Positions 22,257 to 36,126 of a stretch of 36,355 bases of DNA are shown here, one piece after another (position 1 is the first letter of the stretch; each line of letters starts with the position of its first letter). This stretch comes from an uncultured Blautia sp. (GTDB lineage: Bacteria > Bacillota > Clostridia > Lachnospirales > Lachnospiraceae): the NCBI GenBank assembly GCA_946545425.1, contig CAMNNM010000004.1, positions 1 through 36,355 on the forward strand, in the 5' to 3' direction. The notes under the pieces are model-generated. The model was not told where the DNA came from. It worked only from the letters and a program-made list of their open reading frames with translations, and did not search any database. Made by a program: the position numbers and the translations under genes.

Positions 22257-22600
22257 TGGCTGCCTCCTGCGAGGGATCGGAACGGCATTTTTTTGACCGC
22301 CCTGGCGCTGTTCGCACCAAGATCCCGGCACTGCCGAAGCGTCGGCTGAATCAGTTCAAATACATTATGTCCTTTGGGAAGAGGCGACATCTGCATCGCG
22401 GCCTGCTGCCCCGTGATCCCGATTCCGCTTCCCAGCATGGACTCTGCTGCCGCCTGATGTGCCAGCTCGTCCACGTCTCCGTTTCCGGAAACGATCTGAA
22501 AAAGAACGCCCTCTTCTTCAATTCCCGCGCATATCTCTTTTAAAAGATCCTTGTCCGGATGATCCGTATAGATCATGATCGAAGGTCTGTTTACAATCAT
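22253..22600 (-). CDS. pduH: Diol dehydratase reactivase small subunit
   Basis: 115 residues, close to the ~120 of PduH/DdrB. It begins RPSIMIYTD after four residues, and has the family block GIEEEGVLFQIVSG that mimics the dehydratase beta subunit fold. With PduG it swaps damaged cobalamin out of the inactivated dehydratase at the cost of ATP. It overlaps pduG (ATGA at 22597-22600) and pduO, so the three are translationally coupled. Upstream extension of the frame into pduG has no family similarity and was excluded. Confidence 0.9.
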   Translation of the reverse strand: MIVNRPSIMIYTDHPDKDLLKEICAGIEEEGVLFQIVSGNGDVDELAHQAAAESMLGSGIGITGQQAAMQMSPLPKGHNVFELIQPTLRQCRDLGANSARAVKKMPFRSLAGGSQ

Positions 22601-24420
22601 CTGTCTTTTCCCGCTCCCAGATACGAAAGAAGAAGTCCTGTGGCCACCGCGTTTCTCGGACCCTCTGTTCCCCGGATATTTCCGCGGCCGCACACGATCC
22701 GGTATTCCGAAAGTGCCTGCGTAAGCATTTCAGGGATCTCGAAATCCTCCGCCGAGCCTCCTACCAGCACCACGTTGGGAATCTTTCTCAGATCATGATC
22801 CGGCGCGACGGCAGTCAGCGCACGGATCGCATTGCGGACAAAGACCTTTCGTTTGGCATCCCGCCTGACATCCATGATTTTTTCCATCGTGATGTCTTCC
22901 TCGATCCGAAGCATCTCGCCCGGCGCAAGAAGAACGACTCTTCCAAAATATCTGGGATCAATGGATTCTTCAAAGAACCGCATGGCCCCGTTTTCCAGCC
23001 TCATATGGAAAAGGCTCTCCACCTTGCCCATAGGATATTTTTTGATCTGCTCCGCCGTCTGCCGGCTTTCAAGACCCAGCTCGGTACGGATCAGCATGGT
23101 GACCAGCTCTCCTGCGCCGGCCTGGTGCGTTGTACGTACCGTGCCGTCCGCTTCGAGGACAGCTGCGTCGGTGGATCCGCCGCCCATATCCAGGATGGCC
23201 AGCGGAAGCCTGGTGCCCGGGGTGGTCATCGCTCCGAGGGATGCCATGACAGCCTCCACGCCTGCAACGACAGCCTTGACATGAAGTTCTTCCTCCAGTC
23301 TTTCCGCTATCTTCTGCATGGGCAGATGTCTTGTCCTTACCATGGCCGCTATGCCGACTGCCTTCTCCATGCAGGTCTCGCCTGCAAGAGCGCCGGGGAT
23401 CGTCACGGGCGCAAGGGTATCGACCGCCAGAATATCCGTGATCCGGATCTCTTCTCCGCCGTCTCCGGCCACATCCGCCATGCCGGTTCTGATCCGTTTA
23501 AACATGTTTCCGACATTGGTATTGTTCTGTCCTTCGATGTCCCGGATCTCTCCGGCCGCAGAACGTTCCTCCATGATCCTGTCGGCGCCGGCGTCGATAT
23601 TGACGGTTCTGTCCGTATCTCCGTGAAAGGTGATCTCTCCGGCCGGCAGCACATTTTCCTGTATATTGCCGTGCGGAGTCCGTATCACCACAGCACTCCG
23701 GTTTCCGATCAGACTCTTTGCAATGGGCGTCACCATTCTGGTTTCCTCTGCGTTGAGCCCGAGAAGCGTCGCGATCCCATAGGGATTCGAAAGCATCCGG
23801 ATCGAAGTACCCGGAAGCGCCACCTCAATGGCAGCCATCTTTCCTTCCGGTATCTGCCGGATGTGCCGGACTTCGTCCACGATGGGGATCCGGATCGAAA
23901 GGCGGTTTTCCACAAGCACCGCTTCGTCCGCCTGAAGGATCAGACCTTTGATATCCAGCTCCGGGATGAACTGGTTCAGCCTCGAGGCAGCCTCCTCATA
24001 GGAGAATCTGCTGTCTACGGCAACAATATAGGGGACTCCCGGCTTTCCCCTCCACAGGTTTTCCAGAAAGATCAGTTCACCGACCGCTTCCCCCGCGCCT
24101 GCCGGCGTGGACGGATCGTGACCGATCATGGAGGATTCCGTGATGATCGTCTCTGTTATGGTCTCCATCGCGGTGTCTCCGATGACCGGAGCCGCTTCAT
24201 TCAGACGCACCAGAGAAAGGGCGGACAATGGAAGATTCACTGCACCGAGTGCATCCAGCAGGGCCTGCTTTATGCCGAATACGTTCGGCAGCGTCCCCTT
24301 GGTGCCCGTAGTCATGCGGGATGCCCCGGAGACAAACCGAAAAGACCCGTTTTCACGGATCTCCCCGATACAGACCTCTGTTGTCGAATTTCCGATATCA
24401 ACGCCCGCGATCAGTTTCAA
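22597..24420 (-). CDS. pduG: Diol dehydratase reactivase large subunit (ATPase)
   Basis: 607 residues, about the same as Salmonella PduG (610). It is an Hsp70/actin-fold ATPase: IAGVDIGNSTTEV at the N-terminus is phosphate-loop 1, and LDMGGGSTDAAV (about 425) is the second phosphate motif. With PduH it releases inactivated cofactor from PduCDE. The start is TTG at 24420, overlapping the pduE stop as TTGA and preceded by GAGG at 6 bases; the family's conserved N-terminus begins exactly here, which supports this unusual codon. Neither start nor sequence suggests breakage. Confidence 0.93.
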   Translation of the reverse strand: MKLIAGVDIGNSTTEVCIGEIRENGSFRFVSGASRMTTGTKGTLPNVFGIKQALLDALGAVNLPLSALSLVRLNEAAPVIGDTAMETITETIITESSMIGHDPSTPAGAGEAVGELIFLENLWRGKPGVPYIVAVDSRFSYEEAASRLNQFIPELDIKGLILQADEAVLVENRLSIRIPIVDEVRHIRQIPEGKMAAIEVALPGTSIRMLSNPYGIATLLGLNAEETRMVTPIAKSLIGNRSAVVIRTPHGNIQENVLPAGEITFHGDTDRTVNIDAGADRIMEERSAAGEIRDIEGQNNTNVGNMFKRIRTGMADVAGDGGEEIRITDILAVDTLAPVTIPGALAGETCMEKAVGIAAMVRTRHLPMQKIAERLEEELHVKAVVAGVEAVMASLGAMTTPGTRLPLAILDMGGGSTDAAVLEADGTVRTTHQAGAGELVTMLIRTELGLESRQTAEQIKKYPMGKVESLFHMRLENGAMRFFEESIDPRYFGRVVLLAPGEMLRIEEDITMEKIMDVRRDAKRKVFVRNAIRALTAVAPDHDLRKIPNVVLVGGSAEDFEIPEMLTQALSEYRIVCGRGNIRGTEGPRNAVATGLLLSYLGAGKDR

Positions 24421-24812
24421 GCAAGGATTCCTCTTTTCTCATATACTTCGGCGGCTTCCAGAACCAGCTTCGCGCAGTGCGGAGCATGATACTTTTCCAG
24501 AAGGTCCTGCGCCAGCATCAGCAGCTCCTTTTTGGTAGACCGGTTCGGCCGGAGCTGATTGTACATTTTCAGGATCACATCGTCCGGAACATTCACAAGC
24601 TCGGATGCCCGGTCAAAATTTGCCTTCATCTGGGGATTGTCATCTTCCAGAGCTACGTTGCCCTGCCGCTTCAGCATCTCGGAGGAGATCTTGATATCCT
24701 CTGAGCTTACATTTCCTCTTCTTACCTCTTCAAGGGTGATCTGCGACAGTTTTTTGCCGGTTCTGGAAGTGATCGTATCTGCTTCATATTTTCCCAGCGG
24801 ATATCTGCTCAT
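24417..24812 (-). CDS. pduE: Propanediol dehydratase small (gamma) subunit
   Basis: 131 residues. YPLGKYEADTITSRTGK at the start and PDDVILKMYNQLRPNRST, ending in AAEVYEKRG, match PduE/DhaB-gamma throughout. It is about 40 residues shorter than enteric PduE, lacking the N-terminal extension that in Salmonella includes a signal-like helix. Forms the alpha2beta2gamma2 dehydratase with PduC and PduD. ATG 24812 overlaps the pduD stop by four bases, with GGAGGG upstream; a longer in-frame start lies within pduD and was rejected. Confidence 0.92.
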   Translation of the reverse strand: MSRYPLGKYEADTITSRTGKKLSQITLEEVRRGNVSSEDIKISSEMLKRQGNVALEDDNPQMKANFDRASELVNVPDDVILKMYNQLRPNRSTKKELLMLAQDLLEKYHAPHCAKLVLEAAEVYEKRGILA

Positions 24813-25492
24813 TGTACGCCCTCCCATTCGATCATGCCCTTTTCAGGATCCAGCTGCTCGGTCTCGATAATATGCATCAGCGCAGCCTTTACCTGGAACT
24901 TTGCACGTACCATCGGATCGTTTTCGCTCTCGATGGGCGTAACCCGCTCGCCTTTCGCATAGCGTGCGGCATTCCTGCCGATCTTGCGGTAGGTCTCGGG
25001 CGTCATGAGCGGCGCCTGGGGAAACAGCTCCAGATTGGTCAGGGGATAAAGATCCTTCTGATGAATGACCGTGGTCCCCTTGGACTGGATGCCGATTCCG
25101 ATGCCGGAGCCGGAAAGCTTTGCCGACTGAAGCGCCATGAAACCCACGTCCGAGGTATCCAGAACCTTGACGACCCTGGAGACCATGCCTTCCTCCTCGA
25201 TTCCGGCCCTTACGTTTCTCAGCACCTCATCGAGAGGGATTCCCGTTATCGTTGAACGGATTTCGGTCTGGAACGCGGCGCCGACACCGATCACGATTTC
25301 TTTCGGATCAGTTCCCTTTACCGCTTTGACAACGTTTGTATAATGATGCTTCGGCCGCATCCGGGTTCTTCCGGAAAGTGACTGCACGGATCTGTCCGCC
25401 GTTTTCGTTTCCGGAACGGAAGCACCCTGTTTCTGCAGCTGTTCAATAACTGCTCTGGTGATCGCCTGGACAAGCTGTTCGTTCATTTCCAT
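24809..25492 (-). CDS. pduD: Propanediol dehydratase medium (beta) subunit
   Basis: 227 residues. Family blocks are ITGIPLDEVLRNVRAGIEEEG, DVGFMALQSAKLSGSGIGIGIQSKGTTVIH and LELFPQAPLMTPETYR. The first 18 residues (MEMNEQLVQAITRAVIEQ) form an amphipathic helix closely like the PduD helix that directs the enzyme into the Salmonella microcompartment. This extension is taken as evidence for a lumen-located propanediol-type dehydratase rather than a free glycerol dehydratase. GGAGG lies 9 bases before ATG 25492. It starts 13 bases after pduC. Confidence 0.93.
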   Translation of the reverse strand: MEMNEQLVQAITRAVIEQLQKQGASVPETKTADRSVQSLSGRTRMRPKHHYTNVVKAVKGTDPKEIVIGVGAAFQTEIRSTITGIPLDEVLRNVRAGIEEEGMVSRVVKVLDTSDVGFMALQSAKLSGSGIGIGIQSKGTTVIHQKDLYPLTNLELFPQAPLMTPETYRKIGRNAARYAKGERVTPIESENDPMVRAKFQVKAALMHIIETEQLDPEKGMIEWEGVQ

Positions 25493-25505: not shown

Positions 25506-27170
25506 TTACAGATCGTTCACATCGATCCGGTGCGGGATCGCCTTGATCTCTTCCCACCGCTTTCCGGATACGCGGTATCCGGTTCCCGGCCCCAGATAAT
25601 CGTTGGGCGTGTTGACTCCGGACATTACCTGGAACTGATCGTCCAGGATCGCCGCGGTATGCATGTAGTCTCCGATCACACGCTGCTTGAGCATGTTCAG
25701 GATGCTTTCGGCCAGCTCCTCGAAGCCGGATTCCGCAAGCGCCCTTACCACGTCGACTCCCGTGATCCCGCGCTTCATCATGTCGTCCGCCGAAAGAAGG
25801 TCCGCTGCCACGTCACGTTTCAGGGTATCGTGGCTTCCATGGGCATAGGTTACGGCTTCCACCTGCTCATCCGTCACCTCAGTAAGCCCCAGGTATCGGA
25901 AGACGGCCTGAACCGCCTTTCCGGCAAGTCTGCGGACACGGATGACTTCCTCTTCCGTCACGGGCCGGAGCCCGCCGTCCACCTGCATGTCCCTCTGCAG
26001 GACATTATAATCGTCAAAGTCCTCCGCATCGAAATTCGATCCGGCGAACATGTTATCGTAATTGGGTTCTGCCGCATAGCCCGAGAAAATAAAATCCGTG
26101 CCGGGCATGAACTGCAGCATGGTTCTTGCCGTTCTTCTCATATCGGAATTGGAAAAGCTCTGATCATTGGAGGAAGCGCATTCCAGTCCCAGTAGCGCGG
26201 CGACCAGATTTTCTCCGATCACTTCCCGTATTCCGGAGGGCACGCTGGCCGTAACGCCGATGCAGCTGACCGATCCGTTCTGAATTCCCTGTGTTCCCGC
26301 GCCCTTTGTCATGAACAGACACCGGCACTCCAGATACAGCATGGACTTCTTTTCACTGGATCCCATCAGCACCTCGGAGCCCGAACCGGAAGTGAACCTC
26401 ACCTTCAGTCCGCGGGATGCGTAGGCCGAGCTTAAAAACGCCTTGGAATACGGCGTATCGTCTCCGTCGATGAAAACCTTCTCGGTTCCGTATACGGAAA
26501 GGGTCTCCGCATAGGTCGTAAGACCCCGGATTCCCAGCTCCAGCTCAGTCGCTTCCTCGACCGCGCACTGGGTGAGGACGCCTTTTCTTCCTGCCTGGGA
26601 ACCGATCAGAAGCGCGATCGCATTAAACGGAGCGTACCGGGCAACGCCGGTCGTGGTTTCCTCCTCGCTGAAGCCTCTGAGCGCTCCCTCTGCGGCGTCC
26701 GCCGCGATCTGAACCGGATCGTCCTTCAGATTGGTGATATGCGCCTGATTGCCGGGAACCTTTCTGGCCCTCATCTTCTGCATGCCCATCATCAGTTCGA
26801 CGACATTCAGATAATTGATGATCTCTGCCATCTTTGCAGGCGTGATCCCGGAGATGATCTTCAGGATCTCCTTTCGCGGAGTCACGATATCCACGATCTT
26901 TCTGGCGATCTCAAGCGAGGGGATTGCCATGGATTCCTCGGCGCGGTCCGCACGGATCGCGTAATCCGCGATAAACTGATCGATAAAGTCAAAATCCTCG
27001 CGCTTTTTTCCGTCCAGCTCGGTGATCACACCGTTTTCGACTTTAATCGAAGGCGCGGGATCATACGGACTCTTCATGGCGATGAATCCCATCTCGGGCC
27101 ATTCGTCGATAAATCCGTCTTTGTTTACAGCTCTTTTGTCCAGTGCCTCAATTCTTTTGGATCTCTTCAT
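25506..27170 (-). CDS. pduC: Propanediol dehydratase large (alpha) subunit, B12-dependent
   Basis: 554 residues, the same length as Salmonella PduC and similar along its whole length (MKRSKRIEALDKRAVN at the start, VARYAPFNAIALLIGSQ, LTQCAVEEATELELG, FTSGSGSEV, NGSVSCIGV, LECASSNDQSFSNSDMRRTA, NYDNMFAGSNFDAEDFDDYN). It forms the TIM barrel that binds substrate under adenosylcobalamin and dehydrates 1,2-propanediol to propionaldehyde (or glycerol to 3-hydroxypropionaldehyde). It is B12-dependent, not the glycyl-radical type. I take ATG 27170; an in-frame TTG two codons upstream is less likely. It lies 21 bases after pduQ. Confidence 0.96.
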   Translation of the reverse strand: MKRSKRIEALDKRAVNKDGFIDEWPEMGFIAMKSPYDPAPSIKVENGVITELDGKKREDFDFIDQFIADYAIRADRAEESMAIPSLEIARKIVDIVTPRKEILKIISGITPAKMAEIINYLNVVELMMGMQKMRARKVPGNQAHITNLKDDPVQIAADAAEGALRGFSEEETTTGVARYAPFNAIALLIGSQAGRKGVLTQCAVEEATELELGIRGLTTYAETLSVYGTEKVFIDGDDTPYSKAFLSSAYASRGLKVRFTSGSGSEVLMGSSEKKSMLYLECRCLFMTKGAGTQGIQNGSVSCIGVTASVPSGIREVIGENLVAALLGLECASSNDQSFSNSDMRRTARTMLQFMPGTDFIFSGYAAEPNYDNMFAGSNFDAEDFDDYNVLQRDMQVDGGLRPVTEEEVIRVRRLAGKAVQAVFRYLGLTEVTDEQVEAVTYAHGSHDTLKRDVAADLLSADDMMKRGITGVDVVRALAESGFEELAESILNMLKQRVIGDYMHTAAILDDQFQVMSGVNTPNDYLGPGTGYRVSGKRWEEIKAIPHRIDVNDL

Positions 27171-27191
27171 AACCAATCACCATAATCTGTC

Positions 27192-28343
27192 TCAGCCCTG
27201 CCAGAGCCTCGTATAAATGTTTATGATGTCTTCTTTTGTCGGAACTCTGGGATTTGCCGGAGTACAGCTGTCCCTCAGGGCAGCCTCGGCCATCCGGTCG
27301 ATGGCGCCGAAATATTTGTCCGGCGTGATCGTCCCCATCTCAGAGATCGTCATGGGTATATCCATCTCTTTCAGCATGAACTGGATCCAGTTCACCAGAG
27401 AATTGACGGACATTACTTTGTTATAGCTGGAAAGCCCCAGAATATGGGCTATATTGGAATACCGCTTTACTGCCGGAAGATATTCCTTCTGGCTGCGGCT
27501 TTTTTTATTGATATCGGCGTTAAATTCAACGACGTAGGGAAGGAGCATCGCATTCGCGCGGCCGTGGGGAACGTGGAAAACCGCTCCCAGCTGATGGGCC
27601 ATGCTGTGCGTGATGCCAAGCCCGGCTGTATTAAAGGACAGACCGGCAAGGCAGGAGGCGACATGCATTTTTCTTCTTGCATGCATGTCGTTGCCGTCCA
27701 GATAGGCTCTTAGAAGAAAAACGCCGCAGATCTCAATAGCTTTTTCCGCAAGCGCCGCCGAAAATTCATTATGATTGATACTCACATAGGATTCCAGAGC
27801 ATGTGTAAAGGTATCCATTCCGGTGTCCGCCGTAACAGAAGGCGGAACGGAACGCACCAGCTCGGCATCCAGGATCGCCTCGTCGGCGGTAAGCGAATCG
27901 GAGATCAGAGGGTACTTCACTTTTGCAGCCGTATCGTTGACAACCGCAAAGGAGGTGACCTCGGACCCCGTCCCGCTGGTAGTGGGTACTGCAATCAGTC
28001 CTACTTTTCCGTAGGGGTTGATCTTCAGTGCAAATTCACGGATGGCTTTCGAAGAATCGATCGCCGAACCGCCGCCCACGGCCACGACCGCGTCCGGCTG
28101 ATAGGCCAGAAATTTTTTCACGCCTTCTGCGATCTTGTCAACCGGCGCATCCGGCACCACATCGCTGAAAAGGTCGTACTCTTTGCCGGCGCTTTGAAGC
28201 GGCTCCGTGATCAGATCGATCATGCTGCTCTTCGCGATGAACGGATCCGTAATGATCAGGATTCTTTTATATGGAATTTCCTTAAGACGTCCCAGCGCAT
28301 TTTCACCAAAATGGATCGCTGTCCTCATCTCAAATGTTTTCAT
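27192..28343 (-). CDS. pduQ: Iron-containing alcohol dehydrogenase, propanol dehydrogenase-like
   Basis: 383 residues of the group III alcohol dehydrogenase family. NAD-binding GGGSAIDSSKA is at 90-100. Metal ligands by family spacing are Asp177, His181, His246 and His260 (TGMDTFTH and ITHSMAHQ to HVPHGRAN). It likely reduces propionaldehyde to 1-propanol, recycling NAD+ in the compartment, and could also reduce lactaldehyde. I start at ATG 28343 (MKTFEMRT), which has GGAGCAGG just upstream and matches the PduQ N-terminus; an in-frame ATG at 28358 is also possible. It follows the regulator by 41 bases and precedes pduC by 21. Confidence 0.9.
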   Translation of the reverse strand: MKTFEMRTAIHFGENALGRLKEIPYKRILIITDPFIAKSSMIDLITEPLQSAGKEYDLFSDVVPDAPVDKIAEGVKKFLAYQPDAVVAVGGGSAIDSSKAIREFALKINPYGKVGLIAVPTTSGTGSEVTSFAVVNDTAAKVKYPLISDSLTADEAILDAELVRSVPPSVTADTGMDTFTHALESYVSINHNEFSAALAEKAIEICGVFLLRAYLDGNDMHARRKMHVASCLAGLSFNTAGLGITHSMAHQLGAVFHVPHGRANAMLLPYVVEFNADINKKSRSQKEYLPAVKRYSNIAHILGLSSYNKVMSVNSLVNWIQFMLKEMDIPMTISEMGTITPDKYFGAIDRMAEAALRDSCTPANPRVPTKEDIINIYTRLWQG

Positions 28344-28384
28344 TTCCTGCTCCTGCATTTGGCCTGCTTACCTGTTATCCCGTA

Positions 28385-29164
28385 TCATGCCGGAGAATCC
28401 GGATACAGGCAGCGCACCTCATTTTGATCAAAATATTCCATCCAGCCGTTGTCAGGCCGTTTATCCGTGATCACCAGATCGACTCCTGCGGATTTCAGAC
28501 CTCCCGTAACCGCAAAGGCTGACTGATCAAATTTCGTACAGTCTGCCATAAGGACTCTTTTTCTGCTGGATTCCAGCATGGCCAGCTTGGTTCCCGAAAA
28601 GACTTCCTGAGACTCCATCATTCCCTGTATCCGGTTAATCGCCTTGCAGGATACAAAAGCCCAGTCCATATAAAAGGAACGGATCATCGATTCACATTTG
28701 CTTCCGTGAAAGCAAAGATAGCCTTTCTGTATCGCCCCGCCGGCCGCATAGACGGACCATCCGGTCACATCCCCCAGCTCGATCAGGATTTCTACGGAAT
28801 TTGTCACAATCGTGAGCTTTTTACGGTTTTTCAAAGCTCTGGCCAGAAAGATCGCCGTTGTGCTTGCGTCCAGAAAAAGATGATCCCCGTCGTTCACGAG
28901 GGAAGAAGCGATTTCTGCCATCTTCTGCTTGCCGGAAGCGTTTTTGTTTCTCCGGATATTGAATGGAAGCTCTATGGAAACATCCTCGTTCAGAACGGCG
29001 CCGCCGTAGCTTTTTACGGCAAACCCTTCTCTCTCCAGACGTTCCAGGTCTCTTCGGATCGTTTCCTCCGAAACCTCGTAAAACTGACTCAGTTCACTGA
29101 CAATTACCCTTTTTTCGCTGTGAAGCTTCTCCAGAATCTCTCCACGCCTCTCTGCTGCCAGCAT
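28385..29164 (-). CDS. DeoR-family transcriptional regulator
   Basis: 259 residues. A winged helix (1-56) contains VSELSQFYEVSEETIRRDLERLEREG, the DeoR DNA-binding signature. The C-terminal DeoR sensor domain (about 75-240) resembles sugar-phosphate isomerases and normally senses a phosphorylated sugar intermediate. In fucose and rhamnose operons such regulators often sense the ketose- or aldose-phosphate, so this one may control the microcompartment operon; that is inference. It lies inside the operon, between pduT and pduQ, in the same orientation, rather than at its edge. GGAGG precedes ATG 29164. Confidence 0.92.
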   Translation of the reverse strand: MLAAERRGEILEKLHSEKRVIVSELSQFYEVSEETIRRDLERLEREGFAVKSYGGAVLNEDVSIELPFNIRRNKNASGKQKMAEIASSLVNDGDHLFLDASTTAIFLARALKNRKKLTIVTNSVEILIELGDVTGWSVYAAGGAIQKGYLCFHGSKCESMIRSFYMDWAFVSCKAINRIQGMMESQEVFSGTKLAMLESSRKRVLMADCTKFDQSAFAVTGGLKSAGVDLVITDKRPDNGWMEYFDQNEVRCLYPDSPA

Positions 29165-29201: not shown

Positions 29202-29750
29202 TTAAAGGATCGTATCCATCATTCTGCGGTCAGGATGCGCAATGACAGAGGAATCCAGATACATTCCCTTGGCTGCCACCAGCTCTTTCGCCCTGCGGAT
29301 CGACGCCTCCACGGCCGATACTTCGCCCGTGATCAGCATGTACGATTTTCCGCACATTCCTTTGGCCAGCCGAAGCTCGATCAGATCGACGATCGCTGTT
29401 TTTGCAGCCTGATCCGCGGCCTCGATCAGGGAAGCCACGTCGTAGGTTTCAAGGATTCCAAGGGCGCTGATCTCCTCCACATGGGTCGCCCCGTATATCG
29501 CCGGAAAGATCGACTCATGCGGATTGCCCAGCACAAAGCTGTCGATGCAGCTGGACTCATTGCTGTTGACGGCGGTTTCGACAGCCGCCTGTACCGCAGA
29601 AAGATCTCCTGTTATAATCGCAACATATTTACCCGGGCACACAGTCTGTGCCTCAATGATCTCGACTTCTGCGGTCTTGACCATCGCGTCCGCCGCGGTG
29701 ATCCCGGCTGCCGTAGTCTTAAATTCAATCATACCGATGGCTCTGCTCAT
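29202..29750 (-). CDS. pduT: PduT-like tandem-BMC shell protein with iron-sulfur site
   Basis: 182 residues with two BMC domains (about 1-90 and 91-182), which trimerise to give a pseudohexamer. The start MSRAIGMIEF and Cys38 in the VCPGKY loop match Salmonella PduT, whose Cys38 from three chains binds a [4Fe-4S] cluster in the central pore. It is thought to pass electrons across the shell, probably with PduS. The ATG at 29750 lies behind AAAGGA; a longer frame into pduS was rejected. It follows pduS by 16 bases. Confidence 0.93.
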   Translation of the reverse strand: MSRAIGMIEFKTTAAGITAADAMVKTAEVEIIEAQTVCPGKYVAIITGDLSAVQAAVETAVNSNESSCIDSFVLGNPHESIFPAIYGATHVEEISALGILETYDVASLIEAADQAAKTAIVDLIELRLAKGMCGKSYMLITGEVSAVEASIRRAKELVAAKGMYLDSSVIAHPDRRMMDTIL

Positions 29751-29766
29751 GATCTGTACGTCCTTT

Positions 29767-31092
29767 CTATTCAGCTGCAATGACAATATGACGGTCTGTA
29801 ACCTCGGTGACTTTTCCGTCTATTGACGCGTGAATTCCGACACTGAGGCCCTGAGCAGGTTCAGCGATCATCTGTCCCCGCTTCACATGCTCTCCCGCCG
29901 AAACAACAGCATGGGCCGGAGCTCCGATATGCTGGCTGAGAAGGATTGTCACCTTCTTTACCGGGACAAGTCTTTCGTCAAGGGGTGCCTCTTTGTCGTA
30001 CTTCGAAAGTCCGAGTCTTGCCATCAGGCGTTCTTCCGGCACCTTTCTGTATTCCCGTGACTCCCGTACCGGAACGGCCTCCACTGCAGGCGGTTTTATG
30101 CCGCCTTTCCGAAGGCCGGCTTTCATGTCGGCCAGCAGCGTTCTGGGCGCCAGGCTCTGCGGACAGGAAAACATTTCGCATACGCCGCAGGAGCTGCAGA
30201 AGCTTGCATTGATATACGGATTCATATCCTGGAAATCCGCATTGGATGCAGCTCTCATGAATCTTGCAGGATCAATGGGATGTCCCAGCGCATGTCTCGG
30301 ACACAGATCCGTGCAGGTGTTGCACTGGCAGCAGATGGATGCCGCCCTCTTTAAATCTATAGAAGCTTTTCGATTCTTCTTTGTAACGATCGTATGATCC
30401 TTCGGGAGGACCAGGATCGCATTTGTCGTTTTCGTAACCGGATCGGATCCCGATCCGATCCTTCCCATCATCGGCCCGCCCACGAAATAGACAGGATCCT
30501 CGCAGGTCAATGCGCCTGCCTGTGCCACTGCCTCGTCAAGCGTCGCTCCAATGGGCATACGCACAGTAACCGGGTTGGACACTTCCGCCACGACAGAAAT
30601 GAATTTATCTTCCACCGGCTCATTGAATTCCACTGCGCGATATACATTAAACACCGTCTCCACATTGAACACGGCTACGCCCTGCTCTATGGGAAGACCG
30701 CCCGGCCGTACCACCCGTCCGGTTGCTTCATAAATAAGAACCACCTCGTCTCCCATCGGATATACTTCCTGGAGAAGATGGATCCTCATGTTCGGAAATT
30801 CTTCGATATGCTGTCTTAAGGCGTCAATGGTCTTTTTATAAGACTCCTTGATGCCGATGACCGCCTCTTTGGCTCCCACCGTTTCGGCGATCATATAAAA
30901 GGTTTTCATGATCTCATAGGCATGCTGTTCCAACACCTGCCTGTGAAGCTTCAGCAGAGGTTCGCATTCCGCGCAGTTCAGCAGAATAATCTCTGCTTTA
31001 TCTGTCAGCTTGGCGTAAGTAGGAAATCCGGCACCGCCGGCGCCGACCACACCGCACCTTTGTATTATATTCTGTAATTCCTTGATATCCAT
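29767..31092 (-). CDS. pduS: PduS cobalamin reductase, RnfC-like iron-sulfur flavoprotein
   Basis: 441 residues. The N-terminal RnfC-like flavin/NADH domain has VGAGGAGFPTYAKL. Two ferredoxin-type cysteine clusters follow: C254-x2-C257-x2-C260-x3-CP and C299-x2-C302-x2-C305-x4-CP. A beta-sandwich (SLBB-like) domain lies between the flavin part and the clusters, and a C-terminal barrel-sandwich segment ends the protein. PduS reduces cobalamin for PduO, and is thought to contact PduT. The ATG at 31092 has only a weak GGGGA site. It follows pduN by 24 bases. Confidence 0.93.
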   Translation of the reverse strand: MDIKELQNIIQRCGVVGAGGAGFPTYAKLTDKAEIILLNCAECEPLLKLHRQVLEQHAYEIMKTFYMIAETVGAKEAVIGIKESYKKTIDALRQHIEEFPNMRIHLLQEVYPMGDEVVLIYEATGRVVRPGGLPIEQGVAVFNVETVFNVYRAVEFNEPVEDKFISVVAEVSNPVTVRMPIGATLDEAVAQAGALTCEDPVYFVGGPMMGRIGSGSDPVTKTTNAILVLPKDHTIVTKKNRKASIDLKRAASICCQCNTCTDLCPRHALGHPIDPARFMRAASNADFQDMNPYINASFCSSCGVCEMFSCPQSLAPRTLLADMKAGLRKGGIKPPAVEAVPVRESREYRKVPEERLMARLGLSKYDKEAPLDERLVPVKKVTILLSQHIGAPAHAVVSAGEHVKRGQMIAEPAQGLSVGIHASIDGKVTEVTDRHIVIAAE

Positions 31093-31116: not shown

Positions 31117-31389
31117 TTATTCTTTGATCCAGTCCTGCCCGTCATCGACAATACCGACGATCGCCGCGTCCACCGGCGCATTGTCCATTCCGCAGCCTAT
31201 GCGGGCCGCGCTGCCCTCTGCGACCAGTACATACTCACCGATTCCCGCTCCGATGATGTCAATCGCGACAAGGCGTGCCTGATCCCCTTTCATATGATGG
31301 ATCGGCTCCACGATCATAAATTTGTTTCCGATAAGTTTTTCACTTTTTCTTGTGGAAACGATACTTCCCACTACCTTGCCCAAGAACAT
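31117..31389 (-). CDS. pduN: BMC-P vertex pentamer protein, EutN/CcmL/PduN family
   Basis: 90 residues in the EutN/CcmL beta-barrel fold. MFLGKVVGSIVSTRK at the start and LVAIDIIGAGIGEYVLVAEGSAAR carry the family pattern. Twelve pentamers of this protein cap the vertices of a closed shell. It is the only vertex protein visible. The ATG has GGAGGG at 5 bases. A 104-base gap with a hairpin separates it from pduL upstream. Confidence 0.95.
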   Translation of the reverse strand: MFLGKVVGSIVSTRKSEKLIGNKFMIVEPIHHMKGDQARLVAIDIIGAGIGEYVLVAEGSAARIGCGMDNAPVDAAIVGIVDDGQDWIKE

Positions 31390-31493: not shown

Positions 31494-32138
31494 TTATTTA
31501 ATAATGGTAACCGTATTTCCCGTTTTGATCTGCGCTGCGTTGGCTTCATCCGTATCGATGTGCATCTCAAGGGTAAAGCTCTCGTCCACGCGGATCTTGA
31601 CATGATTGAAGATAGTGCCGCGCTCATTGTCAGCCTTCACGGAAACAATATCTCCGTCCTTCACTCCGGCAGCTTCGGCGTCCTTCGGGGACATATGGAT
31701 ATGGCGCATCGCAACGATGCATCCTTCCTTCAGATACAGCGCGCCCTTCGGGCCTACCAGCGCCACTGCCGCGCTGCCCTTGATGTCGCCGGATTCGCGG
31801 ACCGGCACATTCATGCCCAGCTTGATCGCATCTGTTGCGGAAACCTCAACCTGCGACGCCTTGCGGACAGGTCCGAGGATCCGGACATTTTCAATTGCGC
31901 GAAGCTTGAGGCCCACGATGGTGACCGTTTCGTTCGATGCAAACTGACCGCCCATCAGGTCCTTTTTCTTCGTCAGCTGATATCCCGGTCCGAAAAGGAC
32001 CTCGACATGCTCCTGAGTAAGGTGCACGTGTCTTGCCGAAACACCGATCGGTACAATGAAGCCGGTGTCTTTTTCTTCATGGCTGCCGATTGCCTGAATT
32101 ACCATTCTGGTAATCTGTTCAATACTGCTTGCTTCCAA
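31494..32138 (-). CDS. pduL: PduL phosphate propanoyltransferase
   Basis: 214 residues. Two PduL beta-barrel domains carry zinc-binding motifs: VSARHVHLTQEH (His37, His39, Glu43) and MRHIHMSP (His146, His148). It exchanges CoA for phosphate on propionyl-CoA, regenerating CoA inside the compartment and giving propionyl-phosphate. The first ~18 residues form an amphipathic helix (SSIEQITRMVIQAI) like the targeting helix of other PduL proteins. The start is TTG at 32138, 5 bases after AGGTGG; an ATG at residue 12 would cut the helix, so TTG is preferred. Confidence 0.95.
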   Translation of the reverse strand: MEASSIEQITRMVIQAIGSHEEKDTGFIVPIGVSARHVHLTQEHVEVLFGPGYQLTKKKDLMGGQFASNETVTIVGLKLRAIENVRILGPVRKASQVEVSATDAIKLGMNVPVRESGDIKGSAAVALVGPKGALYLKEGCIVAMRHIHMSPKDAEAAGVKDGDIVSVKADNERGTIFNHVKIRVDESFTLEMHIDTDEANAAQIKTGNTVTIIK

Positions 32139-32173: not shown

Positions 32174-32452
32174 TTATTTCAGAACCGGAAGGATCTTCTC
32201 TACGTCATTGTGCGGTCTCGGGATTACATGAGTAGCGATCAGCTCGCCAAGTCTGGATGCTGCAGCAGATCCTGCCTCAACAGAAGACTTAACAGCGCCG
32301 ACATCGCCGCGGACCATGACAGTTACAAGTCCGGATCCGATCTTCTCGGTTCCGACAAGAACAACGTTTGCAGCCTTGCACATCTGGTCAGCTGCCTCGA
32401 TTGCTGCGGTAAGTCCTCTGGTCTCAACCATTCCCAATGCTTCCTGTGTCAT
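32174..32452 (-). CDS. pduA: BMC-H hexameric shell protein, PduA-like (copy 2)
   Basis: 92 residues, one BMC domain, start [14 protein letters not shown]. The pore loop reads KIGSGL (37-42), as in PduA, whose pore passes propanediol but holds back propionaldehyde. It differs from the copy at 32817-33092 at about 10 positions. Ribosome site GAGGAGG is just before ATG 32452. In hexamers it would tile the facets of the shell. Confidence 0.95.
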
Positions 32453-32487
32453 GAATTTTTCCTCCTCATTCATAATGAAAATTGTTT

Positions 32488-32799
32488 TTATTTGGTGAAT
32501 TGATTTCTGAAATCTTTATCCCACCGGCTCCGGCTGATGTTTACGAGCCGTACGATCTCCTCGTGGGGGCTTGCGATGACCGCGTAGTTGACAGGTTTCT
32601 TTACTGCCTTGTGAGCAGCCGCCTCGACTGCTTCCGTTACGGCCGCCACGTCTCCTTCCACAATGATGGTTACCAATCGTCCGCCCAACCTGCGTTCCCA
32701 TGATACGAGACTGACGTCTCCCGCCTTGCACATGATGTCCAGGGCGTCCAGTGCGGCAACAACGCCGGAAATTTCAATAAATCCTAAAGAATTGCTCAT
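32488..32799 (-). CDS. BMC-H shell protein with RLGGRL pore and basic C-terminal tail
   Basis: 103 residues. One BMC domain, [20 protein letters not shown]. The pore loop is RLGGRL (37-42), which places arginine where PduA has a serine, so it likely favours anionic solutes. The last ~15 residues add a basic tail ([14 protein letters not shown]) after the family's normal end. It lies between the two near-identical PduA-like genes. Good GGGAG ribosome site. Confidence 0.93.
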
Positions 32800-32816: not shown

Positions 32817-33092
32817 TCAGATGGTCGGAAGGATCTTCTCCACATCGTTATGCGGTCTCGGAATTACGTGGGTAGCTACCAGCTCTCCGAGTCTTGAAGC
32901 CGCTGCGGATCCTGCTTCTACAGAAGCCTTTACAGCTCCGACATCTCCACGGACCATGACAGTCACCAGTCCGGATCCGATCTTCTCAGTTCCGATCAGA
33001 ACGACCTCTGCTGCTTTGGTCATGGCATCTGCCGCCTCGATGGCAGCGGTAAGTCCTCTGGTCTCGACCATTCCTAATGCTTCCTGTGACAT
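32817..33092 (-). CDS. pduA: BMC-H hexameric shell protein, PduA-like (copy 1)
   Basis: 91 residues, [14 protein letters not shown] start, pore loop KIGSGL (37-42). About 90 percent identical to the copy at 32174-32452, with changes at positions 2, 23, 25, 29, 33, 56, 72 and the end. It is the first gene downstream of a good internal promoter (33120-33148), with AGGAGG before ATG 33092. It is likely the most abundant facet protein if that promoter is active. Confidence 0.95.
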
Positions 33093-33119
33093 GATCTTTG
33101 TCCTCCTGAAAAAAATAAT

Positions 33120-33148
33120 ATAATATGATTGACGCTATCGTTTGTCAA
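33120..33148 (-). promoter_or_regulatory. Internal sigma-A promoter upstream of the shell genes
   Basis: On the minus strand TTGACA (33143-33148), a 17-base spacer and TATTAT (33120-33125) match the vegetative consensus at all but one base. The -35 lies within the last codons of the preceding BMC-H gene (Phe-Asp-Lys). Transcription would start near 33112, about 20 bases before the ATG at 33092 and just ahead of its AGGAGG. Confidence 0.6.
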
Positions 33149-33449
33149 AAGCGCTGATCTTCAGCATCTTTTCCGTTCCCTCCTCGGGGTTCGGAATGAT
33201 GTAGTGCTGCACAATACCGGTCATGGCTGCGGCTTTCTGCATTCCTGCCTCCATGGCAGCCTCAACGTCCGCGACCGAACCGCGGTATTTGATGCAGACA
33301 AGAAGCGGAACCGGCAGAGCATCTGCATTTGCAGGTTTATTCTTATCAAACACTTCGAGGTGGACATTGGCGGCCTTGCAGCCGGCGTCTGCCGCACAGA
33401 AGGCGGTGACCAGTCCGTAAACCTCAAGAATTCCCACAGCTTCTGCCAT
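33135..33449 (-). CDS. BMC-H shell protein with a lengthened pore loop
   Basis: 104 residues. MAEAVGILEVYGLVTAFCAAD starts a BMC fold. Between the second strand and the next helix, where PduA has KIGSGL, it has a longer segment (about 36-49, DKNKPANADALPVP), so its pore entrance must differ. The C-terminus IIPNPEEGTEKML retains the family pattern. Its place as first shell gene after the alcohol dehydrogenase resembles the layout of fucose/rhamnose microcompartments. Strong AAAGGAG site before ATG 33449. Confidence 0.9.
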   Translation of the reverse strand: MAEAVGILEVYGLVTAFCAADAGCKAANVHLEVFDKNKPANADALPVPLLVCIKYRGSVADVEAAMEAGMQKAAAMTGIVQHYIIPNPEEGTEKMLKISAFDKR

Positions 33450-33465: not shown

Positions 33466-34701
33466 TTACTTGTTGATGTACGGCGGCAGGATAACGGCGA
33501 TCTTCAGACCCTTCATGGCAAGATTGGTCCTCAGCGCTTCGTTGATGTCCTCCAGCGGGAACTTATGTGTGATCAGCTCTGACATCGGAAGGCCGATTCC
33601 CTTTGCTCTTCTCAGGAAATCGAATGTCGTCGCGTAATCGCGGAGGGTGTAGACCCAGGATCCCACAAGGGAGATCTCTTTGGAGCAGAGATCGAAATGC
33701 GGATTGATGGTCGCGTCACCGCCGTTGATGAAGAAGCCAAGCTCACAAAGTCCGCCGCCGTTGCGGATGAACTTGTAGATGTTGGCATGTGCCTTCGGAT
33801 TGCCGGTGCACTGGAAACCGAAATCGGCCAGATGACCTCCGAACGCTTCCTTCACTGCGCCTGCAAGAGCCTCAATGCCCTGATGATCCGCAAAATTGAC
33901 GGATACGTTAGCGCCCATTCTCTTGGCAAAGGCAAGACGCTGCTCGTTGCCGTCCACTGCGCAGATATTCTCGATACCCATGGTGCGGAGCACTGCGATG
34001 CAGATCAGGCCGATGGGGCCGCAGCCCTGAACAACGACTCTGCTGTTGAAGCGGAGGATATTGGTGAGCTTTGCTCTCTCAACCGCATGAACAAGCACTG
34101 CGCACGGCTCGATGAGGATACGGGAATCCAGATCCAGATCGCTTACGTTGAAGAATGTGGAACCGAACCCGCCGCCGCGGATGAAAATGTAATCGGAGAA
34201 CCAGCCATTCAGATGAACGTCGTCATCCGGAAGAAGTCCGTATACGTCTGCTCCGCCTACGTTCTTTTTGTTCAGGTCGAACATGGTGATCTCGGGATCA
34301 TCCTTGAAGATCATGCAGGTAACGACCTTGTCGCCGACCTTGACCGGCTTGCCGGCGGTATCGGTCTTGACGTTCTTTCCCATCGCCACGATCTCGCCGG
34401 TGCCTTCATGTCCGAGGGCAACCGGGATCAGATCGAAGGGATCTCTCTTGAATTCGTGCGCGTCTGTTCCGCAGACGCCGCATCCTTCTACTCTGACAAG
34501 AATATCATCATCGCCAAGGGGCGGGATCGGATATTCTTTCACTTCAAAATGCTCTTTTTCCGTAAGAACCGCCACATGGGCTGTCTTCGGGATCGATCCG
34601 GGAGCAGCTGCGGCAACAGGTGCGGCAGCGGGTGCATTTCCGGCCATTCCGGAGAGGACCTGTCTGACGATCTCTTCAATATTTACACTGTTGATATCCA
34701 T
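33466..34701 (-). CDS. Zinc-type medium-chain alcohol dehydrogenase with encapsulation helix
   Basis: 411 residues. The first ~18 residues (VNIEEIVRQVLSGM within) form an amphipathic helix, followed by an Ala/Pro linker to about residue 38, the typical design for enzymes packed into microcompartments. The catalytic domain has the zinc motifs GCGVCGTDAHEF and LGHEGTGE and the NAD-binding QGCGPIGLIC. The structural-zinc cysteine cluster of classical members is not evident. It may reduce lactaldehyde or propionaldehyde, or oxidise a sugar-derived alcohol; its natural substrate is unknown. It lies between pduP and the shell genes, 16 bases after pduP. GGAG precedes ATG 34701. Confidence 0.88.
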   Translation of the reverse strand: MDINSVNIEEIVRQVLSGMAGNAPAAAPVAAAAPGSIPKTAHVAVLTEKEHFEVKEYPIPPLGDDDILVRVEGCGVCGTDAHEFKRDPFDLIPVALGHEGTGEIVAMGKNVKTDTAGKPVKVGDKVVTCMIFKDDPEITMFDLNKKNVGGADVYGLLPDDDVHLNGWFSDYIFIRGGGFGSTFFNVSDLDLDSRILIEPCAVLVHAVERAKLTNILRFNSRVVVQGCGPIGLICIAVLRTMGIENICAVDGNEQRLAFAKRMGANVSVNFADHQGIEALAGAVKEAFGGHLADFGFQCTGNPKAHANIYKFIRNGGGLCELGFFINGGDATINPHFDLCSKEISLVGSWVYTLRDYATTFDFLRRAKGIGLPMSELITHKFPLEDINEALRTNLAMKGLKIAVILPPYINK

Positions 34702-34717: not shown

Positions 34718-36106
34718 TCAGCGAATGCAAAGCGCGTCGGACATGATGCAGTGTCTCTTCTTTACGAAGGAGCTGGCATCCGTAAGACCGTCGCCGGTAC
34801 GGCTTGCGATCGAGAAGGTGCAGTAGCTCTCTCCTCCGAAGCCCAGGGCCGCATAGGACGGGCCGTTCTTCACAAGGATCGTCGTATCGATTGCTTTCGC
34901 GTATCTCGTAATTCTGTCTACGTTTTTGGAATGAATATGTGCGGAATGATGATTGCCGTGTTCAAGCCATACGGCCTTCTCAAGCGCATCATCAAAGTCC
35001 TTCGCACGGACGACGCCGAGGATCGGCATCATCAGCTCGGTCGTGATCAGCGGATGCTCTTTTTCACCCTCGAAGACGATGCAGCGGATATTTGCCGGTG
35101 CATTGACTCCGATCATGGCAAGAAGCGCTTTTGCGCTGCGTCCGACGCACTTGCGGTTGAGCTTTCCGCCTGCCAGGCATACATTCACAAGCTTGTCCTG
35201 TTCCTCTTTGGATGCCAGGTAGCAGTCATTATCGTTGATCAGATAATGCATCAGCTCGTCCATTACGGAAGAAACACAGACGATTTCCTTCTCTGCGATG
35301 CAGGGAAGATTGTTATCGAAGGTACAGCCGTTGACAATGTCCCTGGCTGCCTTTTCGATGTCGGCGGTCTCGTCTACCAGTGCAGGCGGATTTCCCGCGC
35401 CGGCTCCGATGCCGCGCTTTCCGGATGACAGTACTGCGGTAACGACGCCCGGGCCGCCGGTAGCCACGATGAGCTGAATATCTTTATGCTTCATCATGAT
35501 GGAGCTGGTCTCCAGAGTCGGTTTTTCAACGGTAACCGCAATGTTGTCCGGACCGCCTCCCTCAAGGGAAGCTTCATTTACCAGATTGATGGCAAAGATC
35601 GTGGTCTTGGTAGCACCGGGATGCGGATTGAATACGACCGTATTTCCGGCTGCCAGCATTCCGATGGTATTGCAGAGAACCGTCTCGCTCGGATTGGTGC
35701 TGGGCGTGATGGCGCCGATGACGCCCCAGGGACCCATTTCGATCAGGGTAAGACCTCTGTCGCCCGAGAAGGCTCTGGTCGTGATGACCTCGGTTCCCGG
35801 TGTTTTGTCTGCTACCAGGTGATGCTTGATGATCTTGTCGCCGACGTTGCCCATTCCCGTCTCATCGACGCCCATGCGGGCAAGGATTTCGGCGTTTTCT
35901 CTGATTTTCCTGCGGATAATGCCAATGATCTTCTCACGTTGATCCATGGACATCCTTTTCACGACAGTCTCGGCCTTTTTTGCTGCCTCGATGGCGTCGT
36001 TCATATCTTTAAAGATACCATGTTTTCCGCCGGGAGCATCGGCAATCTGCATTTTAGCCATGACTTCCTGTACAATTTCCTGTACCATGCTGTCACTGAT
36101 CGGCAT
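34718..36106 (-). CDS. pduP: CoA-acylating propionaldehyde dehydrogenase
   Basis: 462 residues, matching the 464 of Salmonella PduP. Acylating-dehydrogenase blocks are GVIGAITPSTNPSET, GAGAGNPPALVDETAD and the nucleophile Cys near residue 269 in NNLPCIAEK. It ends RHCIMSDALCIR, as in the family. It converts propionaldehyde and CoA to propionyl-CoA with NAD+. The N-terminal helix SMVQEIVQEVMAKM followed by a Gly-rich linker is an encapsulation peptide. I take ATG 36106, 9 bases after GGAGG; the ATG at 36115 directly abuts that site and is too close. Confidence 0.95.
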   Translation of the reverse strand: MPISDSMVQEIVQEVMAKMQIADAPGGKHGIFKDMNDAIEAAKKAETVVKRMSMDQREKIIGIIRRKIRENAEILARMGVDETGMGNVGDKIIKHHLVADKTPGTEVITTRAFSGDRGLTLIEMGPWGVIGAITPSTNPSETVLCNTIGMLAAGNTVVFNPHPGATKTTIFAINLVNEASLEGGGPDNIAVTVEKPTLETSSIMMKHKDIQLIVATGGPGVVTAVLSSGKRGIGAGAGNPPALVDETADIEKAARDIVNGCTFDNNLPCIAEKEIVCVSSVMDELMHYLINDNDCYLASKEEQDKLVNVCLAGGKLNRKCVGRSAKALLAMIGVNAPANIRCIVFEGEKEHPLITTELMMPILGVVRAKDFDDALEKAVWLEHGNHHSAHIHSKNVDRITRYAKAIDTTILVKNGPSYAALGFGGESYCTFSIASRTGDGLTDASSFVKKRHCIMSDALCIR

Positions 36107-36126
36107 AAACTGCATCCTCCTTTGAT

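Follow-up and report, generated by a model that had tools for sequence, protein, structure and literature searches.

A candidate internal sigma-A-type promoter between two shell genes of a fucose/rhamnose microcompartment operon in Blautia

Internal promoters that divide operons into sub-operons are common in Clostridia (PMC5171806, PMC9045289). In C. phytofermentans, which belongs to the same family as the bacterium considered here, transcription start sites show TTGACA and TATAAT hexamers and many sub-operons exist (PMC5171806), and among related clostridia promoters are generally poorly conserved (PMC9045289). Fucose and rhamnose induce the whole microcompartment locus of C. phytofermentans, and glucose shuts it off; its description mentions no internal promoter, the word 'promoter' being absent from the text (PMC3557285). 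More generally, our literature search found no paper on such promoters in the operons of microcompartments or carboxysomes, an absence that is weak evidence. For microcompartment biology and engineering, it is an unsettled practical matter how cells set the ratio of shell to cargo when the genes for both share a long operon.

In this report, we analyzed a promoter-like site in a window of 36,355 bases (the whole stretch of DNA studied), whose microcompartment genes all lie on the minus strand, in the order given in Table 1. Aldolase, aldehyde dehydrogenase, zinc alcohol dehydrogenase, BMC-H, PduL, EutN, PduS, BMC-T and DeoR genes follow one another as in the GRM5-type operons of C. phytofermentans and Roseburia inulinivorans (PMC3557285, PMC4207490); unlike these, the operon of the window has four BMC-H genes, designated H1 to H4, and continues into an iron alcohol dehydrogenase and PduCDE-G. 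The window holds the GRM5 gene set, the class II aldolase being present only as a C-terminus, and its contig ends short of the place of the glycyl-radical diol dehydratase and activase; these two are found at the head of a syntenic operon in a relative (L117), followed by the aldolase (PF02901, PF01228, PF04055). On the strength of the gene order in the window and of the L117 operon head, the locus is assigned to the fucose/rhamnose (GRM5) type, with a terminal B12 diol dehydratase module. Split at the site, the operon has a single BMC-H gene in its proximal part, and the remaining shell genes and many enzymes in its distal part.

Some features of the locus stand apart from the site. The Blautia operon ends in iron alcohol dehydrogenase and PduC-D-E-G (27192-22597), while the L117 operon is headed by a candidate glycyl-radical diol dehydratase together with its activase (L117:3981-7381), so that both types of diol dehydratase may occur in one fucose/rhamnose operon; PduC is present in 33 of 64 genomes of the genus, and a similar co-location in C. 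methylpentosum has been called surprising (PMC6620236). The true start of H4 is probably 32452 and not 32473, as a ribosome site is missing ahead of the outer ATG and the inner one is closely preceded by GAGGAGG. Another contig of the genome holds a further small locus, in which two BMC domains occur (G000:C81:7275-7799). An Rfam scan of the window returned no RNA family.

Table 1. Microcompartment genes of the window and elements of the candidate promoter, in minus-strand order
Feature	Position	Strand	Basis or remark
Class II aldolase, C-terminal part (fuculose/rhamnulose-phosphate type), cut by contig end	36127..36355	-	homologous to C-terminus of L117 PF00596 gene
Acylating aldehyde dehydrogenase (ALDH), upstream of site	34718..36115	-	NF011927
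Zinc alcohol dehydrogenase (ADH), upstream of site	33466..34701	-	profile match
H1, BMC-H shell gene, 104 aa, upstream of site	33135..33449	-	PF00936
-35 hexamer TTGACA	33143..33148	-	within last H1 codons
-10 hexamer TATTAT	33120..33125	-	17-base spacer
Predicted transcription start (T)	33113..33113	-	inferred from -10 position
Shine-Dalgarno AGGAGG of H2	33102..33107	-	sequence
H2, PduA/EutM-like BMC-H, first gene past site	32817..33092	-	PF00936 E 4e-30; EutM model E 7e-36
H3, BMC-H	32488..32799	-	profile match
H4, PduA-like BMC-H, 90% identical to H2	32174..32473	-	profile match and sequence comparison
PduL phosphate propanoyltransferase	31494..32138	-	PF06130
EutN/CcmL-type pentamer (BMC-P)	31117..31389	-	PF03319
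PduS/RnfC-like electron transfer protein	29767..31092	-	profile match
PduT-like tandem BMC protein (BMC-T)	29202..29786	-	downstream of site
DeoR-family regulator	28385..29164	-	downstream of site
Iron-containing alcohol dehydrogenase	27192..28358	-	downstream of site
PduC, B12 diol dehydratase large subunit	25506..27176	-	downstream of site
PduD, medium subunit	24809..25492	-	downstream of site
PduE, small subunit	24417..24827	-	position and synteny with relatives
PduG, dehydratase reactivase	22597..24420	-	downstream of site

The sequence-only reading that drew attention to this region had described a near-consensus TTGACA-17-TATTAT, its strand unstated, at the end of one BMC-H gene and ahead of a PduA-like gene. 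Direct reading and a scan both find it, on the minus strand, and the profile matches of H1 and H2 bear out the identity of the flanking genes. The hexamers carry 11 of the 12 bases of the sigma-A/sigma-70 consensus (five of six in the -10) and are separated by a spacer, AACGATAGCGTCAATCA, whose 17 bases are the optimal length and fall within the 16 to 18 range; an extended -10 (TG ahead of TATTAT) is absent. The -35 is composed of coding bases: it sits in ...GCT TTT GAC AAA CGA TAG, the last codons of H1 (Ala-Phe-Asp-Lys-Arg-stop), across those for Phe-Asp-Lys, and the -10 falls in the 42-base gap between H1 and H2, the ATG of the latter being at 33092-33090. Transcription is predicted to start seven bases past the -10, which would give a leader of 21 bases containing AGGAGG, in agreement with the start about 20 bases from the ATG proposed earlier. 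Start regions favor, although this does not strictly define them, a purine some 7-9 bases downstream of the -10, and here none is present 6-11 bases past it; instead, a tract of seven T (33115-33109) spans the predicted start and, judged by its bases, is a poor initiation region. No convincing intrinsic terminator lies between H1 and H2, and the predicted RNA fold of their junction is not special (z -1.26).

In the window, this is the only match of at least 11/12 on either strand, and Markov simulations of the window predict 0.20-0.27 such sites for both strands. Simulation of the local 88-base region gave p = 0.0011, which overstates the surprise since the site was picked as the best of the window, and which becomes about 0.02 over some 20 gene junctions. 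This local value and the low number expected per window, together with the enrichment of promoter-like sites at the junction in two sets of relatives, indicates that the site is more than chance in its place.

That enrichment was measured with a sigma-A model whose weights come from general knowledge and are untrained, applied to the 100 bases that precede the start of each gene in the window and 80 relatives, near-duplicates being removed. Scores of at least 11 were obtained at the H1-H2 junction in 12 of 64 distinct regions (window included), versus a pooled 10 of 314 for its five neighbours (Fisher 3e-5; shared ancestry among the relatives makes this and the other Fisher and binomial values optimistic). 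The neighbours contributed 0/53 (ALDH-ADH), 3/63 (ADH-H1), 0/64 (H2-H3), 1/65 (H3-H4) and 6/69 (H4-PduL), and the difference from H4-PduL alone is not significant (p 0.07). On the antisense strand, only two of the 64 H1-H2 regions reached this score. Fourteen of the 64 scored above 95% of the dinucleotide shuffles made from them, the neighbouring junctions also being mildly above shuffles (28/314 at p <= 0.05). The enrichment is repeated in a second set of 60 loci, drawn from 397 genomes of the family, each genus being represented by one or two species; junctions resembling the first set were dropped: among the 53 remaining junctions, from other genera, eight H1-H2 regions scored at least 11, versus 8/259 elsewhere (p 0.0018) and 1/53 on the antisense strand. 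The sequence of the site, its rarity and this enrichment across relatives are direct observations. With the same model, the window site (15.3) is on a par with the sequences presumed to be the main promoters at the head of the operon in L117 (15.9) and L121 (17.8).

A promoter at the junction is not a feature of every relative: some five in six lack a strong site there, and in several the gap is merely 12-13 bases long. At the H4-PduL junction (window 32174-32138), sites scoring at least 11 are somewhat frequent in relatives (6/69 and 3/50), and a second internal start may precede PduL in some species.

Base composition brings in the main rival explanation, in which there is no promoter. Of the six junctions, H1-H2 has the gaps richest in AT (GC 0.37 versus 0.45-0.49), and many relatives, whether they have the hexamers or not, share a T-rich leader with CAGGAGGA right before the ATG; a role in translation is for these reasons the principal competitor. 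The AT-rich, unstructured, T-rich leader would help ribosomes to load on the abundant shell gene H2, shell dosage would be set by translation through the strong Shine-Dalgarno sequences of H2 and H4, whose ribosome sites surpass those of the other shell genes, and the hexamers would have arisen by coincidence, from codons for Phe-Asp-Lys and from AT-rich DNA. Yet H4, so similar to H2 and likewise endowed with a strong ribosome site, shows no enrichment of promoter-like sites; nor do the dinucleotide shuffles and the antisense strands, and the local p value speaks against coincidence. We regard this explanation as possible, if on balance improbable.

The history of the site in relatives lends this rival some support. 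In the close relatives, the site is not kept at the orthologous position, a supporting rather than a defining property of promoters, and conservation of the exact site in sister species was therefore rejected: in L034 and L036 the gap is down to 28 bases and the -10 is gone, L059 retains TTGACA but lacks the -10, and L039 has a shifted version, TCGACA-16-TATTAT (10/12), so near the ATG that its transcript would lose the ribosome site. Moreover, TTGACA is found at the tail of H1 in 12 of 82 relatives, seven of which have no -10, showing that the codons alone produce the hexamer. A -10 located 16-18 bases from the H1-tail hexamer is nevertheless found in 5/12 relatives with TTGACA, versus 3/69 without it (p 0.0014). 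Other versions occur at the junction: several Blautia have TTGCA(T/G/C)-17-TA(A/C)AAT directly past the H1 stop, sites of the TTGCA-17-TA(A/C)AAT type are present in L040, L045, L047, L056, L057 and L060, L043, L044 (B. massiliensis GD8) and L046 have TTTACA-17-TATGAT, and L105 to L107 have TTGACA-18-(T/C)A(A/C)AAT; in Blautia sp. Marseille-P3087 (L082), by comparison, the site is weak. The lineages with TTGCA-17-TA(A/C)AAT and with TTGACA-18-(T/C)A(A/C)AAT retain their hexamers although the spacer has diverged, which speaks for a promoter. Turnover of the site does not exclude function, because promoters are poorly conserved among related clostridia (PMC9045289). Separately, in L056, L057, L058 and L107 short inverted repeats lie in the gap that follows H1, ahead of the H2 ribosome site (for example, GTAACTGT...ACAGTTAC in L107 and GTAACCGT...ACGGTTAC in L058), which are possibly mobile palindromes or leader hairpins.

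An inverted repeat is also present at the window site itself, where TTGAC-N10-GTCAA covers the -35 and part of the spacer (33148-33129) and is the only copy in the window. The promoter could in principle be regulated, either through this repeat acting as an operator for DeoR or another repressor, or through the T tract, which coincides with the expected start and might make initiation UTP-sensitive by slippage. However, the window contains 53 inverted repeats of the same size, the motif is within chance, and it is missing from L039, L059, L034 and L036; the repeat was rejected as an operator, and we consider a regulated promoter of either kind highly improbable.

The explanation that we favor, with a probability of roughly 0.57, is that the site is a functional, lineage-specific internal sigma-A-type promoter of the fucose/rhamnose microcompartment operon, and the best reading of the relatives is that H1-H2 is a junction where internal promoters recur. 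Initiation, the sigma factor, the length of the transcript and the physiological effect are what we infer from the site. RNA polymerase with the housekeeping sigma factor would bind TTGACA-17-TATTAT, open the AT-rich gap and start near the predicted position, yielding a second, shorter transcript. This would comprise H2-H3-H4-PduL-EutN-PduS-PduT; DeoR is a probable further member, and the B12 diol dehydratase genes are possible ones. Transcription of the distal genes would thereby be boosted relative to, or uncoupled from, that of the proximal part (aldolase, ALDH, ADH and H1, preceded in a relative by the glycyl-radical dehydratase and activase), and the site probably permits separate transcription of the operon's second half. 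A broader proposal, which we find rather doubtful, is that in Lachnospiraceae an internal promoter has come and gone repeatedly at this one junction, between H1 and the PduA-like H2, where it would serve as an evolving control of the ratio of proximal (aldolase, glycyl-radical) to distal (shell, PduL, B12 dehydratase) functions. Once mapped, an internal promoter here would offer, for gut Lachnospiraceae, a simple, testable answer to the question of shell to cargo ratio, with its patchy presence in relatives providing natural controls.

A narrower purpose for such a promoter had been suggested together with the site, namely that a separate start would allow more BMC-H facet protein than enzyme to be made. 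Building a microcompartment shell takes many hexamers, and the site lies directly ahead of H2, with three BMC-H genes (H2 to H4) downstream. The first half of the suggestion holds up, a separate start at this junction being plausible from its score and from the enrichment in two sets, but the second is not implied by the gene order. H1, also a BMC-H gene, sits upstream of the site along with aldolase, ALDH and ADH (and, in a relative, the glycyl-radical dehydratase), and H4 is followed in the same orientation, with short gaps, by PduL, PduS, the DeoR regulator, the iron alcohol dehydrogenase and PduCDE-G. An excess of facets requires an internal transcript end after H4, and no convincing terminator was found between the shell genes and the downstream enzymes; the dosage idea is therefore only partly supported. 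As the genes are arranged, the site would raise the distal half of the operon, not facets over enzymes. Array data from C. phytofermentans also go against it: ADH, H1 and the two shell genes that follow are induced to much the same extent (72.7-, 74.7-, 80.6- and 73.7-fold), and induction falls over the genes after those (49.4-, 37.2-, 31.7-, 25.6- and 2.1-fold), with no rise at the shell genes (PMC3557285), although this comparison is indirect because an H2 copy seems to be missing from that operon (Table 1 of PMC3557285). Facet excess as the role of the promoter, a special case of the functional promoter that we favor, thus appears unlikely.

A functional promoter here would have its closest parallels in the separate hbd start of the butyryl-CoA synthesis operon of C. 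beijerinckii (PMC9045289) and in the sub-operons of C. phytofermentans (PMC5171806). As in these cases, the candidate is a promoter of the housekeeping type in a gap between co-directional genes of an operon, and its position varies among related species. The parallel cases differ in that their starts were mapped by 5'-end sequencing (and for hbd also by Northern blot), whereas the window site is known from its sequence alone, and in that the -35 of the window site lies within the coding end of the preceding gene. We therefore present the site as a candidate microcompartment-operon case of the known internal promoters, and not as a new kind of element.
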